The notes beneath the pieces are model-generated. The model worked only from the letters and a program-made list of their open reading frames with translations. It ran no database searches and was not told the DNA's origin. From a virus: 62,058 nt of DNA. Below are positions 1 through 47,689 of the stretch, in pieces (position 1 is the first letter of the stretch; every line of letters starts with the position of its first letter). The translations under genes and the position numbers were made by a program. Where the stretch lies: IMG/VR virus record IMGVR_UViG_3300046492_000606, positions 1-62,058 of that record; one strand, written 5' to 3'.

Positions 1-435
1 TCAAAACATCTCATCACTCATCTGCTCTAAAACCCGCTCAACCTGATTACGATAATCCCTGAGGGTTTCGTGATTTCTACTATCGGTTTCCACATCTTCG
101 AACCCCCAAGCCATGATCTGATCGATCTCCTCAAGTAAAGAAAAACACTCAAGGCGAGTTTCGGGATAAATTTTCATTTGCGCCTTTCTCAATAGAGAAT
201 CTCGACGCGCCAGCAGCGCTTCCCATTTTGCTTTATCGGCCAAGACTTCTTTATCCGTTCGACGGATCTTGTGGTGCCAGTAAAAAACGCAACCTACCCA
301 AACAGCTAACCCGAGGCCAATGTTTCCGATGCTGGTAAAAAACCATGCTGGTAGCAACGCCAACAGGTAGACAATGCACGTCATGCACAGGATTTTTTTT
401 CTCTGACTTGGATGCGTTGAGATTTCGAAAGCCAC
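1..435 (-). CDS. Two-TM membrane protein of unknown function
   Basis: The 144-residue product has two hydrophobic segments near residues 17-36 and 38-52. A charged, probably coiled, cytoplasmic tail of about 90 residues follows. The start is GTG at 435-433, chosen because GGAGGGG lies seven bases upstream. The gene ends exactly at the window edge with TGA. I do not recognise the family. Its position at the outer end of prophage 1 suggests either a lysogenic cargo gene or the first bacterial gene beyond the prophage. No catalytic motif is visible. Confidence 0.7.
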   Translation of the reverse strand: MAFEISTHPSQRKKILCMTCIVYLLALLPAWFFTSIGNIGLGLAVWVGCVFYWHHKIRRTDKEVLADKAKWEALLARRDSLLRKAQMKIYPETRLECFSLLEEIDQIMAWGFEDVETDSRNHETLRDYRNQVERVLEQMSDEMF

Positions 436-750
436 AAGTACCCCTCCATACAGCGAAACCTGACTGAGATGGTAGCCAAATCCTTATCAACCAATGCAAT
501 TTGTTGCTCATTGACGATTGGCTGTCTGCGCGGGACTCCCCCTACGAGGCACAGCCCGCGTTTGAGGGAATTATTGGCAATAAGTCGACAGGTTAAATCC
601 CCAGGCCCAGCGATCGTCCCGTCACCTTGCCCTCCACCATGTCAAGGTGACCCCGAAACTCGCGCAACCTATTGATATATAGGAAAAATATACCACTTCA
701 AAGCAACTGCAAAACCGCCGTATCACCCTATAAGAATCAATAACTTAGCG
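436..750. other. Non-coding stretch without a convincing gene
   Basis: This stretch separates the membrane protein gene from the SOS-controlled gene. The open frames on both strands lack plausible ribosome binding sites and phage or Pseudomonas-like composition. The right part, from about 675, is AT-rich with several TATA-like tracts. It could hold promoters or the prophage boundary. No tRNA, terminator or att repeat is recognisable. Confidence 0.5.
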
Positions 751-766
751 TTGTATATTCCTACAG
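751..766 (+). promoter_or_regulatory. LexA-like site, one mismatch in the half-site
   Basis: The sequence TTGTATATTCCTACAG matches the Pseudomonas LexA box layout CTG-N10-CAG except for T in place of the first C. It lies 94 bp upstream of a perfect box. It would be a second SOS operator for the same gene. The copy of this gene in prophage 2 has no matching upstream site. Confidence 0.4.
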
Positions 767-859
767 TAGTCCCTTCTTCCGGCGTTCTGCCGACAGAACA
801 TCAATCCAAAAACCTACAGCTCGTCGCCTCACCCTCGCTCACCGGCTGCGCCTCGATTA

Positions 860-875
860 CTGTATATCCAAACAG
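860..875 (+). promoter_or_regulatory. LexA box (SOS operator)
   Basis: CTGTATATCCAAACAG fits CTG-N10-CAG with an AT-rich left arm, as in known Pseudomonas LexA targets. It lies 19 bp before the GTG start of the downstream gene, so LexA bound here would block transcription directly. The identical 16-mer precedes the homologous gene in prophage 2 at 43376-43391. Confidence 0.8.
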
Positions 876-894
876 TACAAGGCAAGGCACACCA

Positions 895-1266
895 GTGGAT
901 CCCCTCTATATAGAAGACACCGATGATTGGCTCGGCTGCCCAACGCCGCTTGAGACCTGCCAGCATCAGCTCAGAATGTACGAAAGCGAGTTCGAGGAAC
1001 TGAACCTCCAACTGCGCAAGCAAAGAGAGCAGATTTTCAATTTGGTTGAGATGCACGCTTCCGCCGCAACGGAGCGGGATTCACTTCGGACACAATTGAA
1101 GGCCGCGAAAGAAAAGGCCGCCGACGCAAACCGTCGGGCGACTGATGCGGAAACCAAGAGCGCTTGGGAGTTGATGGCGAAGACAAAGCACATCAGCGAG
1201 CTGACAACCAGGCTCGAAGCCGCTACGGGCATCAGCGTGCGTACGGGCCAGCCGTTAGACAGGTAG
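895..1266 (+). CDS. SOS-controlled coiled-coil protein of unknown function
   Basis: The product is about 123 residues from GTG at 895. It opens with a conserved acidic stretch (MDPLYIEDTDDWLGCPTP). From about residue 20 to the end it is a long charged coiled coil rich in Glu, Arg and Lys. The GTG start is chosen because similarity to the prophage 2 copy (43410-43769) begins there and the LexA box lies just upstream. The two copies agree closely over the first 60 residues and then diverge. I know no function. It is transcribed towards, and convergent with, the lysis genes. Confidence 0.7.
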   Translation: MDPLYIEDTDDWLGCPTPLETCQHQLRMYESEFEELNLQLRKQREQIFNLVEMHASAATERDSLRTQLKAAKEKAADANRRATDAETKSAWELMAKTKHISELTTRLEAATGISVRTGQPLDR

Positions 1267-1275
1267 CTTTGATGG

Positions 1276-1365
1276 TCAATCCGACATCCAATACATCACC
1301 GAAACAACTATTACCACCCAAGCAAGCGTGATTAGGAACGACAGGCCAGCCAGTTGCTTGTTCAT
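1276..1365 (-). CDS. Possible 29-residue single-TM microprotein
   Basis: A short frame with ATG at 1365 and TGA at 1276 encodes MNKQLAGL followed by about 17 hydrophobic residues and a short polar end. It lies directly downstream of the spanin genes on the same strand. That position and the single membrane span suggest a small lysis accessory peptide. The ribosome binding site is weak, so translation is uncertain. Confidence 0.35.
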   Translation of the reverse strand: MNKQLAGLSFLITLAWVVIVVSVMYWMSD

Positions 1366-1437
1366 AAACCATTATCAATTTGGTGAATGTGCATGATGCA
1401 GCATGACTAATTCACCAGCAATACTAGACCAACGTCA

Positions 1438-1947
1438 TCATCGCGCGAGCTCTCGAATGTACGCCTGACAAGCCTGAAGCGCGATCAATCCCCGGTCACC
1501 GGTGTCGGTGATGGCGATAATTCGTTGAGCATGCGCCGGGTCAAGTCTGGCTCGTACGGCTCCATGATCCACGCCGCCGGCGACGGTGGAGGCTGACACG
1601 TTGCAGCCCTTGGCAGCGTCGGTCGCATCGAGGAGGACTGACAGGCGCACATCAGCAGTGGCAAGGCGATCACGCAGGCGATCCTGATCACGTTGGGCAT
1701 CGGCAATTTTCCTATAGTGGGCTTGTTCACTGGTCGCCAGGCTTTGCTCGAGCGCGAGACGCTTATCCTGCTCGGCCTGTTGTGCAGCGGCAGCAGCCAG
1801 TGTCAGTTGGTTGAGGGTTTCGCCGTGCAGGCGGGCTTGCTCAGCCAACTGATTTCCATAGCGCCAGTCTTGGAACTGCCAAGCGCTGCCGGCAGCGACC
1901 AACACCAGCACCAGCGCGCCGACCGCTCTCCACGGCACGGCGATCAC
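1438..1947 (-). CDS. Rz-like inner-membrane spanin (DUF2514 family)
   Basis: The 169-residue protein has one N-terminal membrane segment (about residues 8-22). A long periplasmic coiled coil rich in Gln, Glu, Ala and Arg follows, then a conserved C-terminal part (AHAQRIIAITDTGDRG). This is the layout of Rz-type i-spanins, and the sequence matches Pseudomonas DUF2514 proteins as I recall them. GTG at 1947 is chosen because it overlaps the endolysin stop (GTGA), which implies translational coupling. The Rz1-like lipoprotein is nested inside it in another frame. Its role is to fuse inner and outer membranes at the end of lysis. Confidence 0.8.
   Translation of the reverse strand: MIAVPWRAVGALVLVLVAAGSAWQFQDWRYGNQLAEQARLHGETLNQLTLAAAAAQQAEQDKRLALEQSLATSEQAHYRKIADAQRDQDRLRDRLATADVRLSVLLDATDAAKGCNVSASTVAGGVDHGAVRARLDPAHAQRIIAITDTGDRGLIALQACQAYIRELAR
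1485..1700 (-). CDS. Rz1-like outer-membrane lipoprotein, nested in Rz
   Basis: A 71-residue frame starts at ATG 1700 and lies wholly inside the Rz-like gene in a shifted frame. It begins with a signal peptide-like stretch ending LLMCAC, which could serve as a lipobox. The mature part is proline-rich (QPPPSPAAW), as in known Rz1 o-spanins. TAGGA lies about nine bases upstream. The nested arrangement is the classic lambda Rz/Rz1 one. Confidence 0.6.
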   Translation of the reverse strand: MPNVIRIACVIALPLLMCACQSSSMRPTLPRAATCQPPPSPAAWIMEPYEPDLTRRMLNELSPSPTPVTGD

Positions 1948-2366
1948 GGCACATCCTTGAAGAAGACGTGGCCGCCCAACTTCAGGGTCTGCTTTGCCTT
2001 CAGCGACCAAGCCGGCGCCTTGATGCTGGAAGCGTAATAATGCGTGGCGCCGCCGGTAGGATCCGAAACCTTGCCGTCAATCACTTGGTCTGCGGCAATC
2101 CGCGCCTGCGCCAGCTCACGGAACGGGATCTGCTTCACGCCGATCAGGAACTGATAGTTCGGATCAGTCTTGTTCCAGCAGCTGAACTGATACGGTTTCT
2201 GGCACACGCCCGCATACCCCTCCCCCCACCACGATTTCTCCTTTCCATCGAACACGCGGTTTCGAACTGTCCACGCCACGGCGATCTGGCCAGTCAGACT
2301 TTCACCACGTGCTTCACCCCACAGCGTGCGAGCAAGGACGTCACGATCTTTCTCCGTAGCACTCAT
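1944..2366 (-). CDS. Endolysin, SleB-like cell wall hydrolase
   Basis: The 140-residue protein belongs to the Hydrolase_2 (SleB) family. The motif LARTLWGEARGES near residues 10-22 contains the usual catalytic Glu, and the conserved VAWTVRNRV and GVCQKPYQFSCW blocks follow. There is no signal peptide, so export must depend on a holin. ATG 2366 is preceded by TGGAG at a good distance. It is followed by the overlapping Rz gene. An almost identical gene occurs in prophage 2 (43785-44207), so the two lysis genes share a recent ancestor. Confidence 0.88.
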   Translation of the reverse strand: MSATEKDRDVLARTLWGEARGESLTGQIAVAWTVRNRVFDGKEKSWWGEGYAGVCQKPYQFSCWNKTDPNYQFLIGVKQIPFRELAQARIAADQVIDGKVSDPTGGATHYYASSIKAPAWSLKAKQTLKLGGHVFFKDVP

Positions 2367-2381
2367 CACTTTTCTCCAGGC

Positions 2382-2406
2382 AAAAAAATACCCGCTTGGC
2401 CGCGGG
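2382..2406 (-). terminator. Intrinsic terminator just before the endolysin gene
   Basis: On the minus strand a CCCGC/GCGGG stem is followed by TATTTTTTT. The U-tract ends only about 15 bases before the endolysin start. Prophage 2 has an equivalent terminator at 44224-44247. Read-through or antitermination is therefore needed for lysis. Confidence 0.75.
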
Positions 2407-2515
2407 CGTTCAGAAGGTTCTGCAAAAATTGCTGCGTGGGGCTGGGCATAATTGTCCCTATATCGATTTCCACAATGACATGTAGAATGGCCGGATAAAC
2501 TCGCGGAGCAGGTGA

Positions 2516-3520
2516 ATGAACAACAACTTTCATATAATAAGATTAATCTTAGCGCTAATGGTTTTGTTCTCACACTCAGCACCAATCGCAGGATTACCTT
2601 ACACCCAATTAGAACAATACATCGGCAAGCCTTGGGAACTTTATTTTGGCCCGATAGCCGTTCACGCATTCTTTGCAATAAGTGGATATTTAATAGTACG
2701 CAGCTGGACAAAATCCGCGAACACCTTTGAGTTTGCAACCCATAGATTCCTCAGACTTTTTCCCGCTCTCGTTTTTGCAGCAATTTACTCAGCGATTTGT
2801 TTCAAAATAACCAAGCCAGATGCTGTCGGCAGGATAGAGATCCTAAACGGCTCACTCTGGACTTTGAGCTGGGAGATCCTTTGCTACATTGCAGTTGGCA
2901 TTCTCGGAATTCTTGGAGTAGTAAACAAAAAGCATTACAATGTGTTTTTCTCTGTATTGCTCCTCCTGCTTGCGATAAACATATCATACGACTCGTTCTT
3001 CATTCGCAAGGTCATACCTGCACTCATGTGCTTCGCCATTGGCGGATTAATAGCACTGAACGAGGAATCAATAAATATGCGTATTGCCGGAATTGCTTCC
3101 GGCTTAATTTTGGCATTACTGCTATTTCCGCCAACCGCAAATGCAATCATGGCGCTACTCGTTAAAACACCTATATCACTTGGGCCTGTGATTCCAGCAA
3201 TTATAATACACAAGACAATTTATTATTTCGCACTGCCATTTTTCATAATATATCTTGGGAAATACACAGCGACCAAGATCGCATTAAAAAACGATATATC
3301 ATATGGAGTTTATATCTACTCTTGGCCCACGCAGGAATTTGTTGTCTACTTCTTCAGAGATATAATGGGGACTCCGGTGTCAAGCCCAATCCAAGTATTC
3401 GCAGTTGCGCTACCTATTGTCATAGGGCTCTCGGTTCTATCATGGGTCTTAATTGAGCGCCCATGTCTTGAACTGAAACACAAGATACCTAGTTTGCTGC
3501 GCAAGCCACGGGAAGGCTAG
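2516..3520 (+). CDS. Acyltransferase-3 family membrane protein (surface polysaccharide modification)
   Basis: The 334-residue product has about ten hydrophobic segments and starts with the family signature R-x10-H (RLILALMVLFSHS, residues 9-21). Such proteins O-acetylate surface polysaccharides, and phage-borne ones convert the host O-antigen and block superinfection. GGAGCAGGTGA precedes the ATG. It lies on the plus strand between lysis and tail fibre genes and overlaps the tail fibre assembly gene by four bases, tail to tail. The gene is much more AT-rich than its neighbours, which suggests recent acquisition. Confidence 0.85.
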   Translation: MNNNFHIIRLILALMVLFSHSAPIAGLPYTQLEQYIGKPWELYFGPIAVHAFFAISGYLIVRSWTKSANTFEFATHRFLRLFPALVFAAIYSAICFKITKPDAVGRIEILNGSLWTLSWEILCYIAVGILGILGVVNKKHYNVFFSVLLLLLAINISYDSFFIRKVIPALMCFAIGGLIALNEESINMRIAGIASGLILALLLFPPTANAIMALLVKTPISLGPVIPAIIIHKTIYYFALPFFIIYLGKYTATKIALKNDISYGVYIYSWPTQEFVVYFFRDIMGTPVSSPIQVFAVALPIVIGLSVLSWVLIERPCLELKHKIPSLLRKPREG

Positions 3521-3927
3521 CCGCCAAAAACTGGAGCCACAGGCCACTGTATTTCCTGTGGCCATCCCTCCTGCAATTCAATGCGGTTAAGTGAAACACG
3601 GTACTGCTTCCACGTTTTCAAGCTGGCGACCTCATCGGGCGTTGCTTCGTCTAGATCTACAGCATCCTGAAGAGGCCCCATTTGCTGAGTAGCCCATATC
3701 ATCAGGCCACGGCGCTGCTCCAACGCCCAAATGCCTAGTTGCTCCGTTGTTGGAGGCGGCGGCGCAGAGAACACCTCCGCGCCATATGACCAGCCGGCTG
3801 CGGGATGGATGGTATCCGGGATTTCAACCCAGACTAGGTCAGGGTGAAACATCTGGGTGATGTCCCCATCAGTGGAAAACAGCTCGGCGACAAGTCCGCC
3901 TTCAATGCGTGCGTAATTTTTCATCAT
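3517..3927 (-). CDS. Tail fibre assembly protein
   Basis: The 136-residue protein opens with MMKNYARIEGGLVAELF. It contains a Trp-rich middle and ends with EIQWPVAPVFGG, resembling tail fibre assembly chaperones of Pseudomonas phages. Its start overlaps the tail fibre stop as ATGA, so it is probably translated by coupling. It should help the fibre at 3924-5129 to fold or trimerise. Confidence 0.7.
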   Translation of the reverse strand: MMKNYARIEGGLVAELFSTDGDITQMFHPDLVWVEIPDTIHPAAGWSYGAEVFSAPPPPTTEQLGIWALEQRRGLMIWATQQMGPLQDAVDLDEATPDEVASLKTWKQYRVSLNRIELQEGWPQEIQWPVAPVFGG

Positions 3928-5129
3928 GCGTACTCATAGACGATAACGACACCAGGCTGCCCTGCAACACCAGCGGAAGCTGCCAAGCTTTGGTTGTTGT
4001 TGGCCCCAGAGCTACCAGCGCCATAACCAGAACCAGAGCGCGCTCCGGTACCGACAGGGTAATGGCCTCCGGATCCTAAAGGGTTGCTACCGCCTTCACC
4101 GGCAACCCCTTGACCGCTGCCAATGCTTAGGCCATTCGCTCCACCTTTACCTGCGAAACCCACCAGGTTTGCACCCGATGGAGTTGCGCCATTTCCTCCA
4201 CCTGCGCCGGTAGCGCCAACGCCTGCTGTAGTTGCGGAACCGCCACCTGCAGTCCCTCCAGGGCAACTGAGCAATGCGCCAAAACTTGTGGCTCCACCTG
4301 GGTTGCCATTGTTGGCACCTGCAGCTGGGGCGGCCCCGCCCGCACCGATTGTCACCGCTACGCCAGAGAACGCGGCAGTGAAACGTGCACGGCCATATGC
4401 GCCACTGCCTCCTCCAGCTCCGGCTGCTGCTTGGCCTGCCGCTGTTGCGGCTGCAGCGCCACCGCTGCCACCTCCTCCTACCGCCTCAACAATCACAGAT
4501 GTCGTTCCGGAGGTCGGCGTGTAAGTGCCGTTCGCGATAAAAGTCTGCACACCGATCAGGCGCCCAACAGCCTGCCCGAGTTGCATGGCGTGCTGGCTTT
4601 TGGAGGCCGGAGAGACTTGGAACGCGCCACCGGAACAGGCAACAAGCACCCAGCTTCCCGCACCAATACTGCTGTTGTATTGCAACCAAAGTTCGCTATT
4701 CGCAACGATTTCACCACCCTGCAGGGCGCTGTGCCCTCCCCCGACAATCGCCTTGGCGCCGAGACCATTGGGATTGAATGTTGCCGCCGCTGTATTGGCG
4801 AAAGGGGATTTGCATTTCAGCACCATGCCGTCTGTGAGCGCGGTTACAGCGGGCGTGTATGTTGCCGACAGCGCATTCCCCGCGGCTGTGCCGACGGCGT
4901 ACTGCGCCGGGCTGATCAGTTTCAGCCTGCTGATCGCCAACAGCAGTTGTGAGTTGTTGAACTCGTCAGCAGTTATACCGGCGGCCGTCAGAACATTCAG
5001 CAACTCCTCAGTGACTGCATTACCCCACTGAGCTGGAATCAGCGAGCCAGGAGTACCAGCCAAAGCATCTTCATCAACAAACTTCCCCCCCACCAGCCCA
5101 ACGCTGGGAACACTTTTCGGATAATCCAC
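3924..5129 (-). CDS. Tail fibre protein with glycine-rich distal domain
   Basis: The first 150 or so residues of this 401-residue protein resemble phage tail-collar N-termini (GTPGSLIPAQWGNAVTEELLN). From about residue 205 to the end it is extremely rich in Gly, Ala and Ser, with many GGGG/GAGG runs. In some T-even-like adhesins, polyglycine sandwiches form the receptor-binding tip, and this may do the same. It follows the baseplate genes and precedes its own assembly chaperone. The Gly content makes long spurious proline-rich frames on the other strand. Confidence 0.8.
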   Translation of the reverse strand: MDYPKSVPSVGLVGGKFVDEDALAGTPGSLIPAQWGNAVTEELLNVLTAAGITADEFNNSQLLLAISRLKLISPAQYAVGTAAGNALSATYTPAVTALTDGMVLKCKSPFANTAAATFNPNGLGAKAIVGGGHSALQGGEIVANSELWLQYNSSIGAGSWVLVACSGGAFQVSPASKSQHAMQLGQAVGRLIGVQTFIANGTYTPTSGTTSVIVEAVGGGGSGGAAAATAAGQAAAGAGGGSGAYGRARFTAAFSGVAVTIGAGGAAPAAGANNGNPGGATSFGALLSCPGGTAGGGSATTAGVGATGAGGGNGATPSGANLVGFAGKGGANGLSIGSGQGVAGEGGSNPLGSGGHYPVGTGARSGSGYGAGSSGANNNQSLAASAGVAGQPGVVIVYEYA

Positions 5130-5140
5130 GTTCCTACCTC

Positions 5141-5740
5141 TCAGTCATAATTGATGTGCACAACGGTGTGCGCCGGCGCAGGGCGCCGAATAGTGCATTC
5201 GAGTGGGTTGCCCGGGTTCACGCCAAAGCGCTCTCCCCAATAGCTGACGCCGAACCGCCTTCCCTTTCGCTGCCGGCCACCGGTATTCAAAGTCCAGATG
5301 AATTGCGCTCGCCAAGTGCCGAAGTGCGCCGAACCGAATCTTGCTCGTCCAAAACGCGGGGCGCGGTGCTCGGTAATGGAGGCGTTGGGATAGCCTTGGC
5401 TTACGGCTATCTCGATGAAATAACTTCTGCTTTGCCCACCCACCTCCAGCAGGCGCCGGCGAACCGCCAGTCGCCGATCCTCGAACGCTGGATTGAAGCC
5501 CAGACATGGGTCAGGCAGGTTCATCACCGACTCCCAGTCGGGTACCAGCTCGCTGACGTTCGCCGGATCCATCTCGTTCAGCAGATCCACGGCGCGTGCG
5601 TCAAGCCGGGAGAATTCGAGAGCAACACCCGTCAGAACCAAATCGATTTCAGGTACCAAGTCGGGATCCCAAGCCGGGCCCGCGGGGAGCAAACCACGCA
5701 GCTGCTGCCGATATTGTTCAGCGGTTCGCGCTATAGCCAT
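5141..5740 (-). CDS. Mu gp48-like baseplate protein (DUF2313/YmfQ)
   Basis: The 199-residue protein begins MAIARTAEQYRQQLRGLLP and contains PAGPAWDPD and PANVSELVPDWE, the hallmarks of the DUF2313 family. In Mu-type phages this protein follows baseplate J and forms part of the baseplate wedge. It overlaps the J gene by ten bases, which implies coupled expression. Confidence 0.85.
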   Translation of the reverse strand: MAIARTAEQYRQQLRGLLPAGPAWDPDLVPEIDLVLTGVALEFSRLDARAVDLLNEMDPANVSELVPDWESVMNLPDPCLGFNPAFEDRRLAVRRRLLEVGGQSRSYFIEIAVSQGYPNASITEHRAPRFGRARFGSAHFGTWRAQFIWTLNTGGRQRKGRRFGVSYWGERFGVNPGNPLECTIRRPAPAHTVVHINYD

Positions 5741-6768
5741 GTGACGCCTCCGAAGGTCAGCAACTCGTTAGTGGCGGCAGTTACATCTGCAGCGGGGACG
5801 GTCAGCAGGTGATCCGTTTCGCCGGCCGCGCCGCTGATGGCTTCGCGGATGTGGCTGATGAGGAGCATGTCCCCCAGCCCGGCTTCTCGGTCATGCAGGT
5901 CTTTCAAGTTGGCTACGATCGCAGCTCGAACGGCAGTGGTGTCAGGTACCGGGTGGATGCTGTACAGCACAGGCTTTTCAGTGGGAGCGAGTACGTACAA
6001 CTCGGCAGTCACTGGCCGAAGGGGCTCGATGTAATTTTTGATCTCCAGCAACTGAGCCGGATTCGGTACAGGCACCGGATCGTTGTCGCGCATGACAAAC
6101 AGGCCGACGGTACCCGGCCCCAAATAGTTGCCTCGACACCAGGCGCGGGTCACGCCGGGAAATTCCAGCGCCCAGGTTTCGTAATCGTCGGCAGAACCGC
6201 CATGCGGAATCACCCTATAGGAACGAATGACCCGCGCACGCAGCGACTCGATGCTCTCCCTCTCAATGCCCCCACTCAAACCCGGCGCAATGACGGTGAA
6301 GGCATTGGTGACGCCGGACACCGGTTGCACCAGTGTGAGCGCCAACCCGGCGTCGGCGTTGCCCAATGTGCCGGAATCCACCGCCTCAATCGTAGTGGTA
6401 TTGACCCCTGCCACAGTGGTGACACCGGTCGTTACTCGATACATCCGTCCATCACCGGCCTGAAGTACTACGTCGACATCAACAACCGCGCCGGCAGCAG
6501 CACTGAAGGAGACGGCCCCCTCTGCCGGTTGTGCCGCGTTTCTCGGCTGGTTCAGGCGCAACGCGGCGATGCGCTCGAGAGTTTCTTCATCCGCTTTATC
6601 TGGAAGAATTTGCTCGGTGATCCAGTCGAGATAACCGTATAGACCATAGGCGGTGCCACTCAACGTTCTCGCCAGCACCTGTGCATCGGAACGACGCAGC
6701 GAGTCGCTAGCCAGATCGCCCTGGGTACGGCTGATGAGTTCTGGCAGTGAAGGTGTATCAAACGGCAT
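5731..6768 (-). CDS. Baseplate J-like protein (Mu gp47)
   Basis: The 345-residue protein matches the baseplate J family. An N-terminal helical part with PSLPELISRTQGDLAS is followed by the SFSAAAGAVVDVDVVLQAGDG segment and the central GGIERESIESLRARVIRSYR motif. It forms the wedge of a contractile-tail baseplate. It overlaps the gp46 gene by 11 bases and the gp48 gene by ten. Confidence 0.9.
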   Translation of the reverse strand: MPFDTPSLPELISRTQGDLASDSLRRSDAQVLARTLSGTAYGLYGYLDWITEQILPDKADEETLERIAALRLNQPRNAAQPAEGAVSFSAAAGAVVDVDVVLQAGDGRMYRVTTGVTTVAGVNTTTIEAVDSGTLGNADAGLALTLVQPVSGVTNAFTVIAPGLSGGIERESIESLRARVIRSYRVIPHGGSADDYETWALEFPGVTRAWCRGNYLGPGTVGLFVMRDNDPVPVPNPAQLLEIKNYIEPLRPVTAELYVLAPTEKPVLYSIHPVPDTTAVRAAIVANLKDLHDREAGLGDMLLISHIREAISGAAGETDHLLTVPAADVTAATNELLTFGGVTWL

Positions 6769-24888: not shown

Positions 24889-26169
24889 TTAAACCTCGCC
24901 TATGGTTGTTTCTTGAATGGCCTTGCAGGCCTTATGTTCTGTGGCTTGCAGCGGATTACCGAAATCTTCAAATCTAACGCCGGTCAATCCGTGAATCGCT
25001 GCAAACCCTTTCTGATCTAGATGCGCGTGCCACCGCTCGAGGGCATCACGCTTGCGACTCATCACGTCGGACTGGATGTACACCTTCACGTTGTGGCCCA
25101 TCGCGTGGTTGATCAGCAGCTCGCCGATCAGATGGTCAACGCCGAGATCTGCCCAACCGGTACGGGCCACCTTGCGCAGGTCATGGCTTGTCCACTCGCC
25201 CTGCCCTAGCCGACGGAACACAGCACAGCCTTGAGCCTCACCCAGCGCCTTGCCGTTGCGAGCCGGGAACAGGAACTGGCCGTCATAGCCTCGACCTTGC
25301 TGACCTTCTCTGTACCGAACCAGCAGCGTGCAGACCTGCTCTGTCAGGGGCAGGTGATGCTCGACACCGGTCTTGGTGTTCTCGGCAGGAATGAACCACT
25401 CACGTTCGGCCAGGCTGATGTGCGACCAACGCGACATCCGGGTTTCGCCGATGCGCGTGCCGTGGCAGAGCATCATCAGCGCGAGCATCGAATCCAGCGG
25501 CGCACTGGCCATGACCTCGGCCAGTTGATCCAGCAGCCCTTCCAATTGAACGCCGCGCAGACGGGACGGTTTGATGCCCACCTTCGCCTTGGAGAAGTCG
25601 TTGAACCTGATCGCCGCCATTGGGTTGGCCGTGATCAAGCCCAACTTGGTCGCCTGACGGAATGCCAAGGCCAGCAACTGGAACACCGAACGCACGTAGT
25701 CGATGGAAATCGTTTCCTGCAATGGCCACATCAGCAGGTTGTCGAGCGCGGCCTTGTCCAGGCTGATCAGCGCCAGATCACCAAGTCGCGGCTTCAGGTG
25801 ACACTTGATCATCGAGGCGCCGGTGTTCTTGCGCTTGGTCGAGAGGTTGCGGTCGCGCGACATGCGATCGGCGAACCAGTCGAGCAGCTCGCCCACGGTG
25901 TTCCACTTGGATAGGCTCGCCCCTTCGCCAGCGGCCAGACGCAGTCGAATCGACGGAAGCGCCGCGACCAACTGCTTGTGCGTCAGCTCGGGGAAGGTGC
26001 CGATCTGGTTCCACTCGCCTTTCAACACCAGGTACCACGAGCCACCGGTGCGGGCCTTGTTGAAGCGCAGGTAAAGGCCTTTGTTTTCGAGGTCGCGCAC
26101 ATCTTGGACGGTGCCGACTGCCTGACGTTTGAGCTCGGCTTCGGTGATCTTCACCGCGGCAGTCGTCAT
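24889..26169 (-). CDS. Second tyrosine recombinase in the replication module
   Basis: The product of about 426 residues has a DUF4102-like N-terminal arm domain (KGLYLRFNKARTGGSWYLVL), a core-binding domain, and a catalytic domain. The catalytic residues are visible in GTRIGETRMSRW (Arg), SHDLRKVART (His-x-x-Arg), INHAMGH (His) and VYIQSD (Tyr). It is therefore probably active. It is not at a prophage end but in the minus-strand early operon, after VRR-NUC. The start overlaps the VRR-NUC stop as ATGA. It may resolve replication products or act as an alternative integrase. Confidence 0.85.
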   Translation of the reverse strand: MTTAAVKITEAELKRQAVGTVQDVRDLENKGLYLRFNKARTGGSWYLVLKGEWNQIGTFPELTHKQLVAALPSIRLRLAAGEGASLSKWNTVGELLDWFADRMSRDRNLSTKRKNTGASMIKCHLKPRLGDLALISLDKAALDNLLMWPLQETISIDYVRSVFQLLALAFRQATKLGLITANPMAAIRFNDFSKAKVGIKPSRLRGVQLEGLLDQLAEVMASAPLDSMLALMMLCHGTRIGETRMSRWSHISLAEREWFIPAENTKTGVEHHLPLTEQVCTLLVRYREGQQGRGYDGQFLFPARNGKALGEAQGCAVFRRLGQGEWTSHDLRKVARTGWADLGVDHLIGELLINHAMGHNVKVYIQSDVMSRKRDALERWHAHLDQKGFAAIHGLTGVRFEDFGNPLQATEHKACKAIQETTIGEV

Positions 26170-26597
26170 GCAGCCACCACAGTAGGCGCGAGCCGCAGGT
26201 AGGCGCGGATCTGCTCCATCGCGTCGAAGTGTCCACGGCAAACGATCGCCAGATATCCCTGGTCGTTTAGTTTGCGCAGGCGTTCTTGTTGGTTTGCCGA
26301 TACCGCTGCGTCGTTCGGCGGCGTCGCCTTGAATTCGATGTACAGGCCGAAGTACCCGCCGCGGGCCATGCTCAACACCAGATCAGGAATGCCGGCCTTC
26401 ACGCCTTGAGCTTTGAGCTTGGCTGCGACCGCCTTGACCCGGTGCCCGCCGTTCGGGACGTGGTAGATCAGGTCAAACACCGCTGGGGAGCACAGTTCAA
26501 GCTCACGCATCAGCGCGGCCTGCTCGAGTCCTTCACGATCGACCGGCTTGGCCCGCCCGGTTCTCGGCTTGAACAGTTTCGGAATGATCGGCTTCAT
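26166..26597 (-). CDS. VRR-NUC domain nuclease
   Basis: The 143-residue protein carries the PD-(D/E)xK core of VRR-NUC proteins. GIPDLVLSMARGG is followed by LYIEFKA and then NQQERLRKL, with the conserved Asp, Glu, Lys and Gln. Such phage enzymes process DNA structures during replication or recombination. It lies between microprotein genes and the recombinase, overlapping both. Confidence 0.85.
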   Translation of the reverse strand: MKPIIPKLFKPRTGRAKPVDREGLEQAALMRELELCSPAVFDLIYHVPNGGHRVKAVAAKLKAQGVKAGIPDLVLSMARGGYFGLYIEFKATPPNDAAVSANQQERLRKLNDQGYLAIVCRGHFDAMEQIRAYLRLAPTVVAA

Positions 26598-38774: not shown

Positions 38775-38987
38775 ATGAGAAAAGAGCTGATAAAGATCAG
38801 TGAATTCCAGCGCCGGCACTGGGGCGAGAACGGCACGCCGCCCTGCTCCCAAGCGATCCGCAACTACATCCGAAATGGCCAGGTGCCCGGCGAGCAGATC
38901 GGGAAACTCTGGTACGTTGATTGGACTGCGTTCAGTCGATCGGACGGCAACGATCTGGTCGCGATGGTATTGAAAGGAGCTGCATGA
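38775..38987 (+). CDS. Excisionase
   Basis: The 70-residue protein has the winged-helix layout of lambda-type Xis. KISEFQRRHWGENGTPPCSQ is followed by AIRNYIRNGQVPGEQIGKLW and ends with WYVDWTAF. It bends DNA at the att site to favour excision. GGAG precedes the ATG. Its stop overlaps the integrase start region (ATGATG), so the two are coupled. Confidence 0.88.
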   Translation: MRKELIKISEFQRRHWGENGTPPCSQAIRNYIRNGQVPGEQIGKLWYVDWTAFSRSDGNDLVAMVLKGAA

Positions 38988-40099
38988 TGGTCCCACGGCC
39001 GCGCAACAAGGCGAACAAGAGCCTCCCGCAGAACCTGTACTTCGATTCGCGGCGCTCGACCTATCGCTACCGCCGGCCTACCGACGGTAAGTGGTTCCAA
39101 TTCGGCGCCGACCGAATCAAAGCGATCGATGCCGCGAAGCAGTTGAACTTGGAATTTATGCGAGGCGCCGACCTGATCGGCGCGGTGATGGGCAGCACGT
39201 CCGAATCGTTCGCAGGTTTCTTGGACACCTACGAGCGCGACGTGCTGCCACCACGGGAGCTGGCAAAAGGAACATTGGGCTTGTACGCCGTGCACTTCCG
39301 CCGCTTCCGGAAACAATTCGAAGGCAAAGCGGTCGACCAAATCACGATCCGCATGATCGCGGAGATGCTGGACGCTCTCACGCCTCGCACTGCCAACCAG
39401 TGCCGTGCCCTGCTGGTCGACATCTTCAACCACGCAGCAGCCAAGGGCCTTTGCCCGGACAACCCGGCGGGCAGCACCATCAACCGAATTGAAAAGAAGC
39501 AACGCAAGCGGCACACGGTCGAAGGCCTGAAAGCCATCAGGGAAAAGTCGCCGTTCTGGCTGCAGAACGCGATTGACCTCGCACTGATCACTGCGCAGCG
39601 CCGGACGGACATCTTGAATATGAGGTTCGATGGTGTTCGGGAAGGTTTTTTGTATGTGGTGCAGCAGAAGACGGCCAAAGCCAGCGACGCGGCGTGGATC
39701 CGGTTCAAAGTGACCGAAGAACTTCAGGCGGTGATCAGCCGGTGCCGGGATGACATCGTCTCGCCCTACCTGATTCACCGCCGGCCAGACCGAAAAAAGC
39801 AGAAGCAGGCGCAGACGAAAGACCACTGGACTCAGGTCGAAGAACGATATTTGACGCGAGCCTTCAAAGAGGCCCGGGAAGCGGCGGGTTGTTACAAGGG
39901 ATGGAAAGAAGAGGAAATGCCAGGCTTCCACGAAGTGCGGGCGCTATCGTTGCACCTGTATCAGAAAGCCGGGAAGGACGGTCAAAAGATCGCCGGCCAC
40001 GCTAGCGAAACCATGACCAAAAACTACCAGAAGGATCACGCGGATATCGTCTGGTCGGAGGCAACTCCAGACCTGAATATCAGCGAAATCACCGGGTAG
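38987..40099 (+). CDS. Phage integrase (tyrosine recombinase)
   Basis: The 370-residue protein has an arm-binding N-terminus (PRNKANKSLPQNLYFDSRRS), a core-binding domain, and a catalytic domain. The catalytic residues are Arg in AQRRTDILNM, His and Arg in HEVRALSLHL, His in IAGHASET and Tyr in TKNYQKD. ATG 38987 has GGAG at the better distance; ATG 38984 is the alternative. Its stop codon is followed at once by three arm-type repeats and the tRNA-Pro att fragment, so this is the enzyme that uses that site. Confidence 0.92.
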   Translation: MVPRPRNKANKSLPQNLYFDSRRSTYRYRRPTDGKWFQFGADRIKAIDAAKQLNLEFMRGADLIGAVMGSTSESFAGFLDTYERDVLPPRELAKGTLGLYAVHFRRFRKQFEGKAVDQITIRMIAEMLDALTPRTANQCRALLVDIFNHAAAKGLCPDNPAGSTINRIEKKQRKRHTVEGLKAIREKSPFWLQNAIDLALITAQRRTDILNMRFDGVREGFLYVVQQKTAKASDAAWIRFKVTEELQAVISRCRDDIVSPYLIHRRPDRKKQKQAQTKDHWTQVEERYLTRAFKEAREAAGCYKGWKEEEMPGFHEVRALSLHLYQKAGKDGQKIAGHASETMTKNYQKDHADIVWSEATPDLNISEITG

Positions 40100-40130
40100 T
40101 TTTGCGCAAGTTTTGCGCGAGTTTTGCGCA
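40098..40130 (+). repeat. Three tandem 11-bp integrase arm-type repeats
   Basis: AGTTTTGCGCA, AGTTTTGCGCG and AGTTTTGCGCA follow each other without gaps, starting inside the integrase stop codon. The period of 11 bp is close to one helical turn. The position between int and the att core suggests binding sites for the integrase N-terminal domain. Confidence 0.65.
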
Positions 40131-40135
40131 GACAC

Positions 40136-40162
40136 AAAAAAGCCGATCTAGATAATCGGCTT
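40136..40162 (-). terminator. Minus-strand terminator facing the att site
   Basis: On the minus strand GCCGATTA-loop-GATCGGC is followed by TTTTTT. It lies just 3' of the tRNA-Pro fragment in the tRNA sense. In the integrated state it could end transcription of the restored tRNA before it enters int in antisense. Confidence 0.7.
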
Positions 40163-40188: not shown

Positions 40189-40236
40189 TGGTCGGGACGG
40201 AGTGATTCGAACACTCGACCCCTAGCACCCCATGCT
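40189..40236 (-). other. Attachment site: 3' part of tRNA-Pro(GGG)
   Basis: Read on the minus strand the 48 bases contain an anticodon loop ATGGGGT (anticodon GGG), the 3' anticodon stem GCTAG, a T arm with TTCGAAT, the acceptor strand GTCCCG and CCA. The match to tRNA-Pro stops at the anticodon stem, and the 5' half does not follow. This is what an attP or an internal att between tandem elements looks like. A single attL or attR next to integrase would show the complete tRNA here. Confidence 0.8.
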
Positions 40237-40424
40237 TGATAATGGGCATTAACCCCAGCATTTGTTGAGTCTTCCACTGGCGCTCGCTGCAAACGGTGCC
40301 TAACCGAGATCAACTAAAAATAGCGAATCTCCGAAAAAGTCCCCACGCCTTTTTGGCGCCCTCATGGCTTTCTGCCAAATCACTATTCTCCTGCTACGCT
40401 GGGTTCTTCCATGGAGGATACCCA
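40237..40424. other. Non-coding stretch right of the att site
   Basis: This stretch of 188 bases has no convincing gene, tRNA or terminator. It lies between the att fragment and the small conserved protein gene. It would be the opposite phage arm if the att is internal to a tandem array, or bacterial spacer DNA otherwise. Confidence 0.4.
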
Positions 40425-40634
40425 ATGCCTAATTCTGATTTGCTCCCATCCCTACTTTTCAAAATTAACGAAAACCAACTCGCACTTGAAGCGGCGATCA
40501 TGGAGCTGACCCTCTGGGTGGAGCAGCGTGGCTCCGCCGATGTGGCCGAAAATGTGCGTGGCGCGCTTTGGGCTATCGATAAAAATGAGGAATTTATCAA
40601 GATGACGCTGGCAGTTTTGATGGCGCCTGAATGA
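40425..40634 (+). CDS. Small conserved protein of unknown function
   Basis: The 69-residue protein begins MPNSDLLPSLLFKINENQLA and is predicted helical throughout. The ribosome site GGAGG lies seven bases before ATG 40425. I recall short proteins of this kind in pseudomonads but know no role. It may be bacterial or carried by prophage 2. Confidence 0.65.
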   Translation: MPNSDLLPSLLFKINENQLALEAAIMELTLWVEQRGSADVAENVRGALWAIDKNEEFIKMTLAVLMAPE

Positions 40635-40743
40635 CCGCTTTCGGCCAATAGCGGACTTTCGACTTATTTCACCTCAACGAGACCTGATCTTCAGTGAGGC
40701 TTATAATAAGTTCCACACATCTATCTGGATCAGGAACGATGTC

Positions 40744-41148
40744 ATGAATGAGGATTGCGAAAAATCTTCGCCTCTGTCTGAGTCGGTAATCGTCGTTGAG
40801 GATGACCCAATACTTCTCGGTCTGATGGTAGATATTTTGTCCGAAATAGGTTTGCGCTCGCAGGCCTTTGATAGCGCTGATGGTGCTTTAATGCATATGC
40901 TCGGCACACTGCACACGTATCCGCTGGTGATCGCGGATCACGGTTTGCCTGGCAAGCTCAAAGGTGCGGATTTTATCGCGGTAGTAAGGGCGAGATGGCC
41001 CAGCACTGCCACGATTCTCACCTCTGGCTACTCGCTGGATCCTGTCATCGTGCCGCCCTCTACAACGTACTTGGAAAAGCCGTGGGCGATGGACGAACTG
41101 GTGACAGCGGTGGCAAATTCACTTCATACCGATCCCCCCACTTCGTAA
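40744..41148 (+). CDS. Single-domain response regulator
   Basis: The 134-residue protein is a stand-alone receiver domain. VVEDDP holds the acidic pair, VIADHGLPG the phosphoacceptor Asp (about residue 62), ILTSGY the Thr/Ser and YLEKPW the conserved Lys. There is no output domain, so it must signal through a partner. It faces the KaiC-like and second receiver genes, which suggests one signalling set. No kinase gene is in the window. Confidence 0.85.
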   Translation: MNEDCEKSSPLSESVIVVEDDPILLGLMVDILSEIGLRSQAFDSADGALMHMLGTLHTYPLVIADHGLPGKLKGADFIAVVRARWPSTATILTSGYSLDPVIVPPSTTYLEKPWAMDELVTAVANSLHTDPPTS

Positions 41149-41327
41149 GATGTGAGTACGTCTGTGCCATACCTTTTCCTTAGGTTTTAACTCCCTAAGT
41201 ATCCTTTCTCAAAAATCGGTGTGGGCGGTTACAGCCCTCGGCCGGAGAAGACGCCGGCAACCTCGTCAGCAGAGCTGGCGTGATCAATTGCAATCGGGGG
41301 GCCTCGATGGCCAGCGCACACAAGTAA

Positions 41328-41696
41328 TCAGCACCGATCTTCGACCAAGAGCTTTTTAACTTCGGCAACAATCAGGTCTATGTTGAATGGTTTCGCCAGC
41401 ACTGCATCAAACAAATCAGATCGCTGCATGCCTATGTGGGCTTGAGCGCCGCTCATTAGGATGATCGGCAAATGCTTGACGGATGGAAGGGCTCGGACGG
41501 CTGTTGCGAATTCCAAGCCGTCCATCACCGGCATCATAAAGTCAGTAATGATCAGGGCTGGCCGCTCTCTATCTAGCACTTCGAGCCCCTTTTGACCGTT
41601 ACTAGCCGTCACCACCATGAACCCCTCATCCTCCAGCGCAAAGCTGAGAATGTCAGCGATCAAATACTCGTCGTCGACGACCAGGATGGTGGTCAT
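41328..41696 (-). CDS. CheY-like response regulator next to KaiC-like gene
   Basis: From ATG 41696 the 122-residue product is a receiver domain with VVDDEY, LIITDFMMP (phosphoacceptor Asp about residue 53), ILMSGA and VLAKPF. It follows the KaiC-like ATPase gene closely on the same strand, and such pairs are common in bacteria. GTG 41714 is an alternative start. It probably relays a kinase signal to or from the ATPase. Confidence 0.85.
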   Translation of the reverse strand: MTTILVVDDEYLIADILSFALEDEGFMVVTASNGQKGLEVLDRERPALIITDFMMPVMDGLEFATAVRALPSVKHLPIILMSGAQAHIGMQRSDLFDAVLAKPFNIDLIVAEVKKLLVEDRC

Positions 41697-41720
41697 GTTA
41701 AATTCAACCCGCACGAAGGC

Positions 41721-43160
41721 TTAAGATTGTGAACCGGGCGATTTCTCAGTCGGGACTGAAGGTTCATGTCTTGAAGCCTTTTTCAGGAAAACATCTTGAT
41801 CACGAATGACGACCTCAAAACGCGAAGGGTCGTAAGAGCTGTCTCGTACTTTAAGAATGGAAAGCGTCCTGCTTAGTTCAGAGTGATTCTCATAGAATCG
41901 CATCAGCATCAGGTTGTCGACGATGCTGGACAGGTCAGAGTTCGGTGCGCTGACCTCTGAACCAAACAGATCACGCATTTCCCAAGATGCAAATACCGTA
42001 ACGCCTCTGGATCGCAGCTCGTTCATAAGAGCACTGAAGAAGTCAGTAATCCGCGTTGGATTTGTCGTGACTCGCGTCATGCCGCTTAGGCTATCGATGA
42101 ACAAACGCTTGATGCCCTTCTCTTCGACGATACTCAACAGCCGTGCACCCAGCCCATCCAAAAGCCCCTCTGTGGTGGGCTGCCAGGCAATGCTCAACGC
42201 GCCGCTATCTTCCATGCCCTTGATATCGATACCCAGTGATTGGCCTTTGAGCCTCAGCCGTTGTGGGCTTTCGTAGAAGCCAAAATGTAGGCCCGGAGCT
42301 TCCACAGTCGACTCGGCCAGGAACTTGAGGCCCAGCGTCGTTTTACCAATCCCGGAGGGGCCTATGACCAGAGAAACACTGGAACTGTGCAGGCCACCGC
42401 CTAATATGCCGTCGAGTGACTCAATGCCACTGGCGATGCGCGTCATATCGGCGCTATCGGGAGAAGACGGGTGGCTGTAGAGACTTTCGAGTCGCGGGTA
42501 AACCACCAAGCCCTTGTCGGTAATTTCACACTCGTGAAGACCGGTCATGGCTCCGCTGCCGCGAGTTTTACGTAGCTGAATTCGACGTACTGAGCGAGTG
42601 CCATATAGCTCTTCGCCCATTTCGATGACGCCATCAACCATGGTGTGCTCAGGACTGCCGTCGTCGAGGCGGGAGCTGGTAAGAAACAGCACCGTGCAAC
42701 CAGCAAATGCGGCATGCCCTTGAAGTTCAGAGATGAATTTCTTGGTGTCGATGTGTGAATCAGCTTTTGAGCGCGCATTAAGCAAACCGTCCACAACCAT
42801 AACAGTGGCTTTCTGACGGCTTATCTCGCGTCGAAGCAGCCTTACTACCTCGTCCAGGCCTTCGTTTTCCAGAGTGTCAAATGCGCTGACGAATTGGATT
42901 TCAGCACCGACCTTGGAAGAGTCGAAAAAGCTCAGAGTAGAAAGGAACTGAAAGAGACGGTCGTGCGATTCGGCCAACAGCGTGGCGACCAGAACCCGGC
43001 CCCCATTCCTCGCATGATGGAACCCAAGCTGGTTCGCTAGGATCGTTTTTCCAGACCCTGGGCGCCCTTGGATTATGTATGAAGAGCCAGCTACCAGTCC
43101 GCCCTTGAGCAGAGCGTCGAGCCCTTCGATTCCACTTTCGAGGCGTTTAAGCTTTTCCAC
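41721..43160 (-). CDS. KaiC-like tandem RecA-fold ATPase
   Basis: The 479-residue protein has two KaiC-type domains. The first has Walker A GRPGSGKT (about residues 32-39) and Walker B VMVVDGL; the second has GPSGIGKT (about 264-271) and RLFIDSL. Outside cyanobacteria such proteins work with receiver or histidine kinase partners in stress or regulatory pathways. It is co-oriented with a receiver gene just downstream. Whether it is bacterial or prophage cargo cannot be decided from this window. Confidence 0.85.
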   Translation of the reverse strand: MEKLKRLESGIEGLDALLKGGLVAGSSYIIQGRPGSGKTILANQLGFHHARNGGRVLVATLLAESHDRLFQFLSTLSFFDSSKVGAEIQFVSAFDTLENEGLDEVVRLLRREISRQKATVMVVDGLLNARSKADSHIDTKKFISELQGHAAFAGCTVLFLTSSRLDDGSPEHTMVDGVIEMGEELYGTRSVRRIQLRKTRGSGAMTGLHECEITDKGLVVYPRLESLYSHPSSPDSADMTRIASGIESLDGILGGGLHSSSVSLVIGPSGIGKTTLGLKFLAESTVEAPGLHFGFYESPQRLRLKGQSLGIDIKGMEDSGALSIAWQPTTEGLLDGLGARLLSIVEEKGIKRLFIDSLSGMTRVTTNPTRITDFFSALMNELRSRGVTVFASWEMRDLFGSEVSAPNSDLSSIVDNLMLMRFYENHSELSRTLSILKVRDSSYDPSRFEVVIRDQDVFLKKASRHEPSVPTEKSPGSQS

Positions 43161-43375
43161 AATGCGACCCTGATCTGAAAAACAGGCTGTTTAAGCCGAG
43201 TGGACGGAATGCTAACGCCAATTCTGCTTCAGAGCCATTCTGGTTGAGTATAAACGTGGAGCGATATCACACTCTGTTGTCATAAAAGCTGCCCGCGAGC
43301 GGCTGCTTTTGGCCGATTGCTGACTTTCACTACAGCTCGTCGCCTCACCCTCGCTCACCGGCTGCGCCTCGATTA
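43161..43375. other. Non-coding stretch at the start of prophage 2 homology
   Basis: No gene is evident here. At 43330 the sequence becomes closely similar to that starting at 814 in prophage 1 and stays so through the LexA box and into the SOS gene. The left end of the shared phage segment in this copy is therefore at 43330. Confidence 0.5.
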
Positions 43376-43391
43376 CTGTATATCCAAACAG
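43376..43391 (+). promoter_or_regulatory. LexA box (SOS operator), second copy
   Basis: The 16-mer CTGTATATCCAAACAG is identical to that at 860-875 and precedes the homologous gene by 18 bases. It should place the gene under SOS control. Confidence 0.8.
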
Positions 43392-43409
43392 TACAAGCAA
43401 GGCACACCC

Positions 43410-47008: not shown

Positions 47009-47689
47009 CTAAGCGGCTTGTTTGGCAAACATTGCCGGCAGGAAAAAAGCGGTTGGATTGGAAGCTGCGACAGTAATGGCGTAGAGCTTGGCGTTGGGGA
47101 AGTCCCACCAGCAGGCCAGGCTTCTCGGAATCCCGCTGCCCGAAGTCATCGGCATGCCAAAGCTGTTCAGCAGCATGAATTCGTTTTGTGGAAAATCGAA
47201 AGGAACCGAGTAGAAGATCCGGGTTAGGCCCTGATCGTCGGTGTCATAGGTGACGTACGTCCAGCTTTGAAAAGATCTGGTGAAGCTTGCGTTTGGAGTA
47301 CCCGAATCGAAAAGCAACTTCCCAGCACCGTCCCACAGACGCATCCCATACTGCGCAACCGCTTGCGCCGCGAACGCGGCCACAAAATACCTACCATTGG
47401 GTTGCGCTGTTTTTACGTTGTAGGCCCTGACATAGAACCCCGTCCAATTACCTGCCGATCCAATGAGTCGCATCTGACACAGTCCCGCAACTGCATTCAC
47501 CGTGTCAGGGCGAACAAACACGAGCGGAGGCTCCTGAGACGTAACCGGCCGTGCGAAATATGTCGTCGATCCCAGACCACTCTCCTCTGTTGGGGCAAAG
47601 CGGCCAGACGAGATAACCATCAGCCGGGAAAATTCAGAGTCGAGGATGACGACATTGCTGTTGTTGGTGAACTGAACTCCATAGGCCAT
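47009..47689 (-). CDS. Tail-tip associated protein with MAYG start
   Basis: The 226-residue protein from ATG 47689 starts MAYGVQFTNNSNVVILDSEF and is beta-rich throughout. The next gene upstream starts MAYGMRIW, so both share an N-terminal motif. It lies between J and the tail fibre, as accessory tail-tip proteins do. Function unknown beyond probable virion location. Confidence 0.65.
   Translation of the reverse strand: MAYGVQFTNNSNVVILDSEFSRLMVISSGRFAPTEESGLGSTTYFARPVTSQEPPLVFVRPDTVNAVAGLCQMRLIGSAGNWTGFYVRAYNVKTAQPNGRYFVAAFAAQAVAQYGMRLWDGAGKLLFDSGTPNASFTRSFQSWTYVTYDTDDQGLTRIFYSVPFDFPQNEFMLLNSFGMPMTSGSGIPRSLACWWDFPNAKLYAITVAASNPTAFFLPAMFAKQAA

Follow-up and report, generated by a model that had tools for sequence, protein, structure and literature searches.

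The window, a linear IMG/VR virus record of 62,058 bp, carries the 3′ half of a tRNA-Pro(GGG) gene on the minus strand at positions 40189–40236, reading from CCA to the anticodon arm. This att core consists of 47 bases (TGGTCGGGACGGAGTGATTCGAACACTCGACCCCTAGCACCCCATGC, 40189–40235) that are common to all junction types, followed by an additional shared T at 40236. From the anticodon arm to CCA there are no mismatches to the complete Pseudomonas gene used as the reference, that of P. marginalis PgKB35 (CGGGGCGTAGCGCAGTCCGGTAGCGCACTAGCATGGGGTGCTAGGGGTCGAGTGTTCGAATCACTCCGTCCCGACCA), and the identification of the fragment in an earlier note on this DNA is therefore exact. The same note reported that the 5′ half of the tRNA is absent, and indeed the bases adjoining the core read TTGATAATGGGC... 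where the tRNA has TAGTGCGCTACC.... ARAGORN called no complete tRNA in the 62-kb record, and the window holds a single copy of the core, compared with a chance expectation of 0.00 (30-base stretch, up to 3 mismatches).

A tyrosine recombinase of 371 aa (38984–40099, plus strand), with matches to PF00589 and to the lambda-Int arm-binding domain PF09003, lies 89 bp from the core on its CCA side, which agrees with the earlier placement of the integrase on the 3′ side of the tRNA. Thus, a tyrosine-family integrase adjoins a core identical to a tRNA 3′ half, as in attP sites of recombinases that use such cores. This integrase was found at 70 genome loci from Pseudomonas and one Stutzerimonas. At 69 genome loci the integrase is followed by the core, which belongs to a complete tRNA in 48 and is a fragment in the other 21. 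If a single prophage were integrated in this orientation, the complete tRNA would therefore be expected at this junction, as had been argued before.

The end of the integrase gene meets three tandem GTTTTGCGC repeats (40099–40129, plus strand; copies at 40099–40107, 40110–40118 and 40121–40129), which a comparison of elements with this integrase class, called class I, marks as putative arm-type sites of the integrase. The same arm includes a predicted terminator hairpin (40140–40162, minus strand; pattern match, fold z = -5.3) located downstream of the tRNA 3′ end. Equivalent hairpins adjoin other integrase classes too.

Phage genes on the two sides of the core

The region to the left of the core (1–40188) is a nearly complete phage, termed phage A, with the integrase at its right end. 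Its lysis and tail genes code for Rz, endolysin, an O-acetyltransferase, tail fibre, baseplate, tape measure and contractile sheath, and its head and early genes code for capsid, portal, both terminase subunits, replication proteins, an antirepressor and a CI-like repressor. The late genes are on the minus strand, both in this phage and in the one on the right, termed phage B. Phage A encodes another tyrosine recombinase at 24889–26241 (450 aa, PF00589), in the interval from its replication genes to its terminase. An A-like phage of PgKB35 has a homologue, and the record SC_8_H2H8 has an annotated integrase in the same position. In the early region, 36087–36752 matches a PHROG annotated as cysteine dioxygenase (E = 5.9e-46).

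To the right of the core is an att arm of phage B with the conserved element TGGCGCTCGCTGCAAACG (40278–40295, plus strand), called R1, which is native to another integrase class. This is followed by AAAAAGTCCCCACGCC (40334–40349, plus strand), whose position and pairing suggest that it is an arm-type site of phage B's own integrase; a related sequence, AAACTCCCCACC, is found on the integrase side of an R1 element in the genome G182. A small ORF (phrog_12397; 40425–40634, plus strand) comes next and also adjoins att in PgKB35, G056 and G057. Beyond it is a cargo region (40744–43160) in which family matches and relatives identify two response regulators (40744–41148, plus strand, and 41328–41696, minus strand) and a KaiC-type ATPase (41721–43160, minus strand). 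The late end of phage B (43317–62058) codes for an att-proximal hypothetical protein, endolysin, an acyltransferase, tail fibre, a J-type tail protein, tape measure and connectors, along with lambda-type minor tail proteins and neck and adaptor proteins. These genes correspond to a non-contractile tail and continue past the contig end. A relative of phage B in G057 encodes an integrase of its own at the other end, a location that in phage B would lie beyond 62058.

The arm, the small ORF and the response regulator and KaiC genes recur as one 3.1-kb unit, 98% identical, on another viral contig (L199), where they are joined to a different integrase side than in the window. For this reason we place the start of phage B directly at the core. 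The earlier note was right that the second element has the same orientation as the first, but its estimate of a start within 3 kb of the core must be replaced. The response regulator and KaiC cassette is also located among the tail genes of a different phage (L201), and thus it may move as a unit. PADLOC returned weak matches only for 40744–43160, and therefore we claim no defence role for this cargo.

An att-proximal module composed of the genes for a hypothetical protein, Rz and endolysin occurs twice in the window, with one copy per phage, 41.8–42.5 kb apart. A 68-nt repeat at the start of the phage A copy (814–881, plus strand) is identical to that at the start of the phage B copy (43330–43397, plus strand), and two longer, imperfect repeats are shared as well, one of 176 nt (84%) and one of 300 nt within the endolysin region (89%). 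The att-proximal end of phage A is thus at 751–2396 rather than at 40237. Because the module adjoins att in relatives, the far att of phage A itself should be found just left of position 1. An O-acetyltransferase-like gene adjoins endolysin in each phage (2516–3520 and 44266–45306), a position typical of genes whose products modify the surface of the host.

Pairing of att arms with integrase classes

We compared 130 core copies, mostly from arrays on Pseudomonas contigs, after ordering them outward from the complete tRNA. The integrase side of an element was read at its tRNA-proximal core copy and the far arm at the next copy. The genomes searched comprise one per species, many of them drafts. 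Since the class labels are sequence motifs picked after viewing the data, the counts that follow describe a pattern, with no formal test attached.

Repeats of GTTTTGCGC are present on the integrase side in all 21 class-I elements, with one copy in the genome G027 reading GTTTCGCGC. The far arm is of a type called R3 in 19 of these 21 elements, and in 20 of 21 it contains GGTTTTGCGC, which matches the repeats of the integrase side. The R1 arm (CGCTCGCTGCAA) ends 13 elements, 12 of which have an integrase class other than class I. A 3.6-kb element of G027 combines a class-I integrase side with an R1-like arm. In the window, the three GTTTTGCGC repeats stand to the left of the core, and the R1 arm CGCTCGCTGCAA together with AAAAAGTCCCCACGCC stands to the right, where the class-I motif (GGTTTTGCGC / TTTTGC) was looked for and not found. 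Given this pairing of a class-I integrase side with an R1 far arm, the site appears to be a hybrid of the arms of two phages. The position and pairing of the GTTTTGCGC and AAAAAGTCCCCACGCC repeats suggest that they are integrase arm sites.

A third type of far arm (CTCCTTTTTCATACTTCTTGAAAG...), accompanied by a changed core end (CCCCATC), is present at many array junctions, including right of the core in L021, L026, L028, L033, L036 and others. It marks another element class and has CTCGCAACCC as a flank in most cases.

Related junctions and alternative explanations

The same type of junction is found on isolate chromosomes. On a 4.2-Mb contig of P. marginalis PgKB35, the core is directly repeated at 1903545, 1945040 and 1993199, and these copies delimit, in order, a fragment, an A-like phage, a second fragment, a second prophage and the complete tRNA, which is the third copy. 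The A-like phage is 41.5 kb long and resembles phage A in baseplate J (81%), sheath (87%), tape measure (68%) and integrase (89%). The second core copy has a class-I integrase on its left and an R1 arm on its right, as in the window, and the second prophage is no close relative of phage B. In P. fluorescens HKI0770, a 98% identical integrase, belonging to a class-I element reduced to a 9-kb remnant, is followed by an R1 junction and then by genes for a J-type tail protein and for a tape measure that shares 94% identity with that of phage B, and the complete tRNA is located further right, 78.5 kb from the junction. In none of the genomes compared are the two phages both complete and highly identical to those of the window. 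A 6.48-Mb contig (G182) has an R1 junction of the same subtype as the window, the same type of junction is found in G239, and five other IMG/VR records carry the junction motif. A nucleotide search of the phage collection yielded partial matches only and no phage with this junction.

The record SC_8_H2H8_2017 (MT121966, L009) begins with a stretch (1–6231) in which a complete tRNA-Pro (at 6185) and a gene annotated as IF-3 are located, and it has a tRNA fragment at the opposite end (47489–47535). With the complete tRNA-Pro at one end and the fragment at the other, this record appears to be a single prophage with host flank rather than a free phage.

The fragment in the window, without its 5′ half, is flanked by two distinct elements of the same orientation, and the arms of the site come from different elements. 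We consider it, with a probability of roughly 0.9, to be the internal att between prophages stacked in tandem at the single tRNA-Pro(GGG) gene of a Pseudomonas host. The evidence supports two different Pseudomonas viruses placed head-to-tail in one tRNA landing site, with the 48-base piece as the seam. The late region on the left includes a contractile sheath, terminase and capsid, whereas that on the right includes a non-contractile tape measure and a J-type tail protein. Of the two possibilities raised by the earlier note, the internal att between tandem prophages is the one that we retain. The other, an unintegrated attP, conflicts with the mismatched arms, the two late regions and the chromosomal equivalents. 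The free genome of phage phiPSA1 demonstrates that such a fragment can lie between two phage arms in the native attP of a single phage, be it circular or packaged. However, the arms in the window belong to different integrase classes and the site therefore joins two phages. Moreover, one phage genome would not be expected to carry two tail systems and two lysis modules, nor to have the att-proximal end of phage A so far from the core. In view of the arm pairing and the duplicated late genes, we have set aside a single-phage attP as highly improbable.

No greater weight can be given to a simple prophage edge, in which 40237–43300 would be bacterial chromosome and the tRNA would have been damaged by deletion. 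Response regulator and KaiC genes are typically bacterial, and a KaiC homologue is present in 48 of 119 Pseudomonas genomes, but the arm element and the adjoining small ORF are conserved att-proximal features of phages, and phage tail genes come directly after this stretch. The 98% identical 3.1-kb block in L199, which lies between att and a phage lysis module, led us to reject these genes as bacterial flank. A better case, albeit still an unlikely one, can be made for an assembly chimera, wherein the assembler fused two separate metagenome phages at the 47-bp core that they have in common. The record is a viral contig of the metagenome type, the join falls exactly at the shared repeat, and the matches listed include many IMG/VR phages with this core. 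However, the largest k-mers usual in metagenome assembly exceed 47 bp, chromosomes of isolates carry a class-I/R1 junction too, among them on contigs 4.2 and 6.5 Mb long, and the motif recurs in the five further IMG/VR records.

Formation of the tandem array and comparison with known systems

A tandem array of this kind could arise as follows. Phages A and B would encode different integrases that both use the tRNA 3′ half as attP core, each attP presumably carrying a terminator hairpin on the integrase side of this half. Insertion would rebuild a complete tRNA at one end, now with the phage-supplied terminator, and leave a 3′ fragment at the far end, so that the site would stay usable. The rebuilt tRNA could serve again, and perhaps the left-over fragment could as well. 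The seam would then consist of the integrase-side arm of phage A, the core and the far arm of phage B, produced either by insertion of phage B into the tRNA rebuilt by phage A or by insertion of phage A into the fragment left by phage B. Both orders would yield an identical seam, and the order is therefore not readable from it. In PgKB35 and HKI0770, a complete tRNA is seen at one outer end of the array and a fragment at the other. Because the record is a viral contig unlinked to a chromosome, we infer the equivalent sites of the window, namely a complete tRNA beyond the right edge and a fragment left of position 1.

The seam would serve as one att half for phage A and as the other att half for phage B, such that the halves for phage A would be the far copy on the left and the seam, and those for phage B the seam and the tRNA copy on the right. 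By analogy with lambda-type recombination, each prophage would be expected to excise independently, since its att halves hold the full set of its arms.

Prophages pile up often at tRNA-Pro(GGG) in Pseudomonas. The core is present in 198 of 199 sampled genomes and in at least three copies in 20 of 199, a count for which the mobile-element flanks of the copies were checked only partly, and P. putida ASAD has eight copies over 209 kb. A tentative and rather doubtful extension is that this tRNA gene offers unrelated phages and islands, of at least three integrase/arm classes, a landing site without a fixed limit, and that their hybrid att sites permit excision singly or as a block. If so, neighbouring phages and their cargo could leave together. 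A viral contig from a metagenome can consist of two phages connected through a tRNA att site, and it would be wrong to take such a contig for a single virus of 62 kb. A simple sequence test, whether the integrase class matches the far arm, separates internal junctions from native attP sites.

Islands stacked in tandem at one tRNA gene have been described before. Our literature search, in which subscription journals were thinly covered, found no published tandem prophage arrays at this Pseudomonas tRNA. In Bordetella petrii, the tandem genomic islands GI1–GI3 at tRNA-Gly are likewise integrase-coded elements stacked at one tRNA gene with internal repeats of its 3′ end, where an element adjoins the repeat that a previous insertion had left behind (PMC2717098). 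Those islands are ICEclc-like conjugative elements with highly related integrases (PMC2717098), whereas the window has two phages with different integrase classes. The Islander catalogue lists 125 tandems of at least two islands, and 4 of at least three, at tRNA genes (PMC4383910). These resemble the window in that several islands share a tRNA gene and every island has an integrase and a tRNA fragment of its own (PMC4383910), but the array in the window is incomplete, with one integrase and one fragment inside. In P. protegens/fluorescens Pf-5, the integrase of the defective prophage 04 also adjoins a tRNA-Pro gene (PMC2647930). The passage on this element describes a single 13.5-kb remnant, unlike the window, and leaves the tRNA anticodon unstated (PMC2647930). 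A parallel in sequence is phiPSA1 (KJ507100), which has the same tRNA-Pro(GGG) core and an R1-type arm, CGCTCGCTGCAA, in its attP. However, phiPSA1 is a single phage with a different integrase-side arm, and both of its arms come from that one phage, whereas those of the window appear to come from two.
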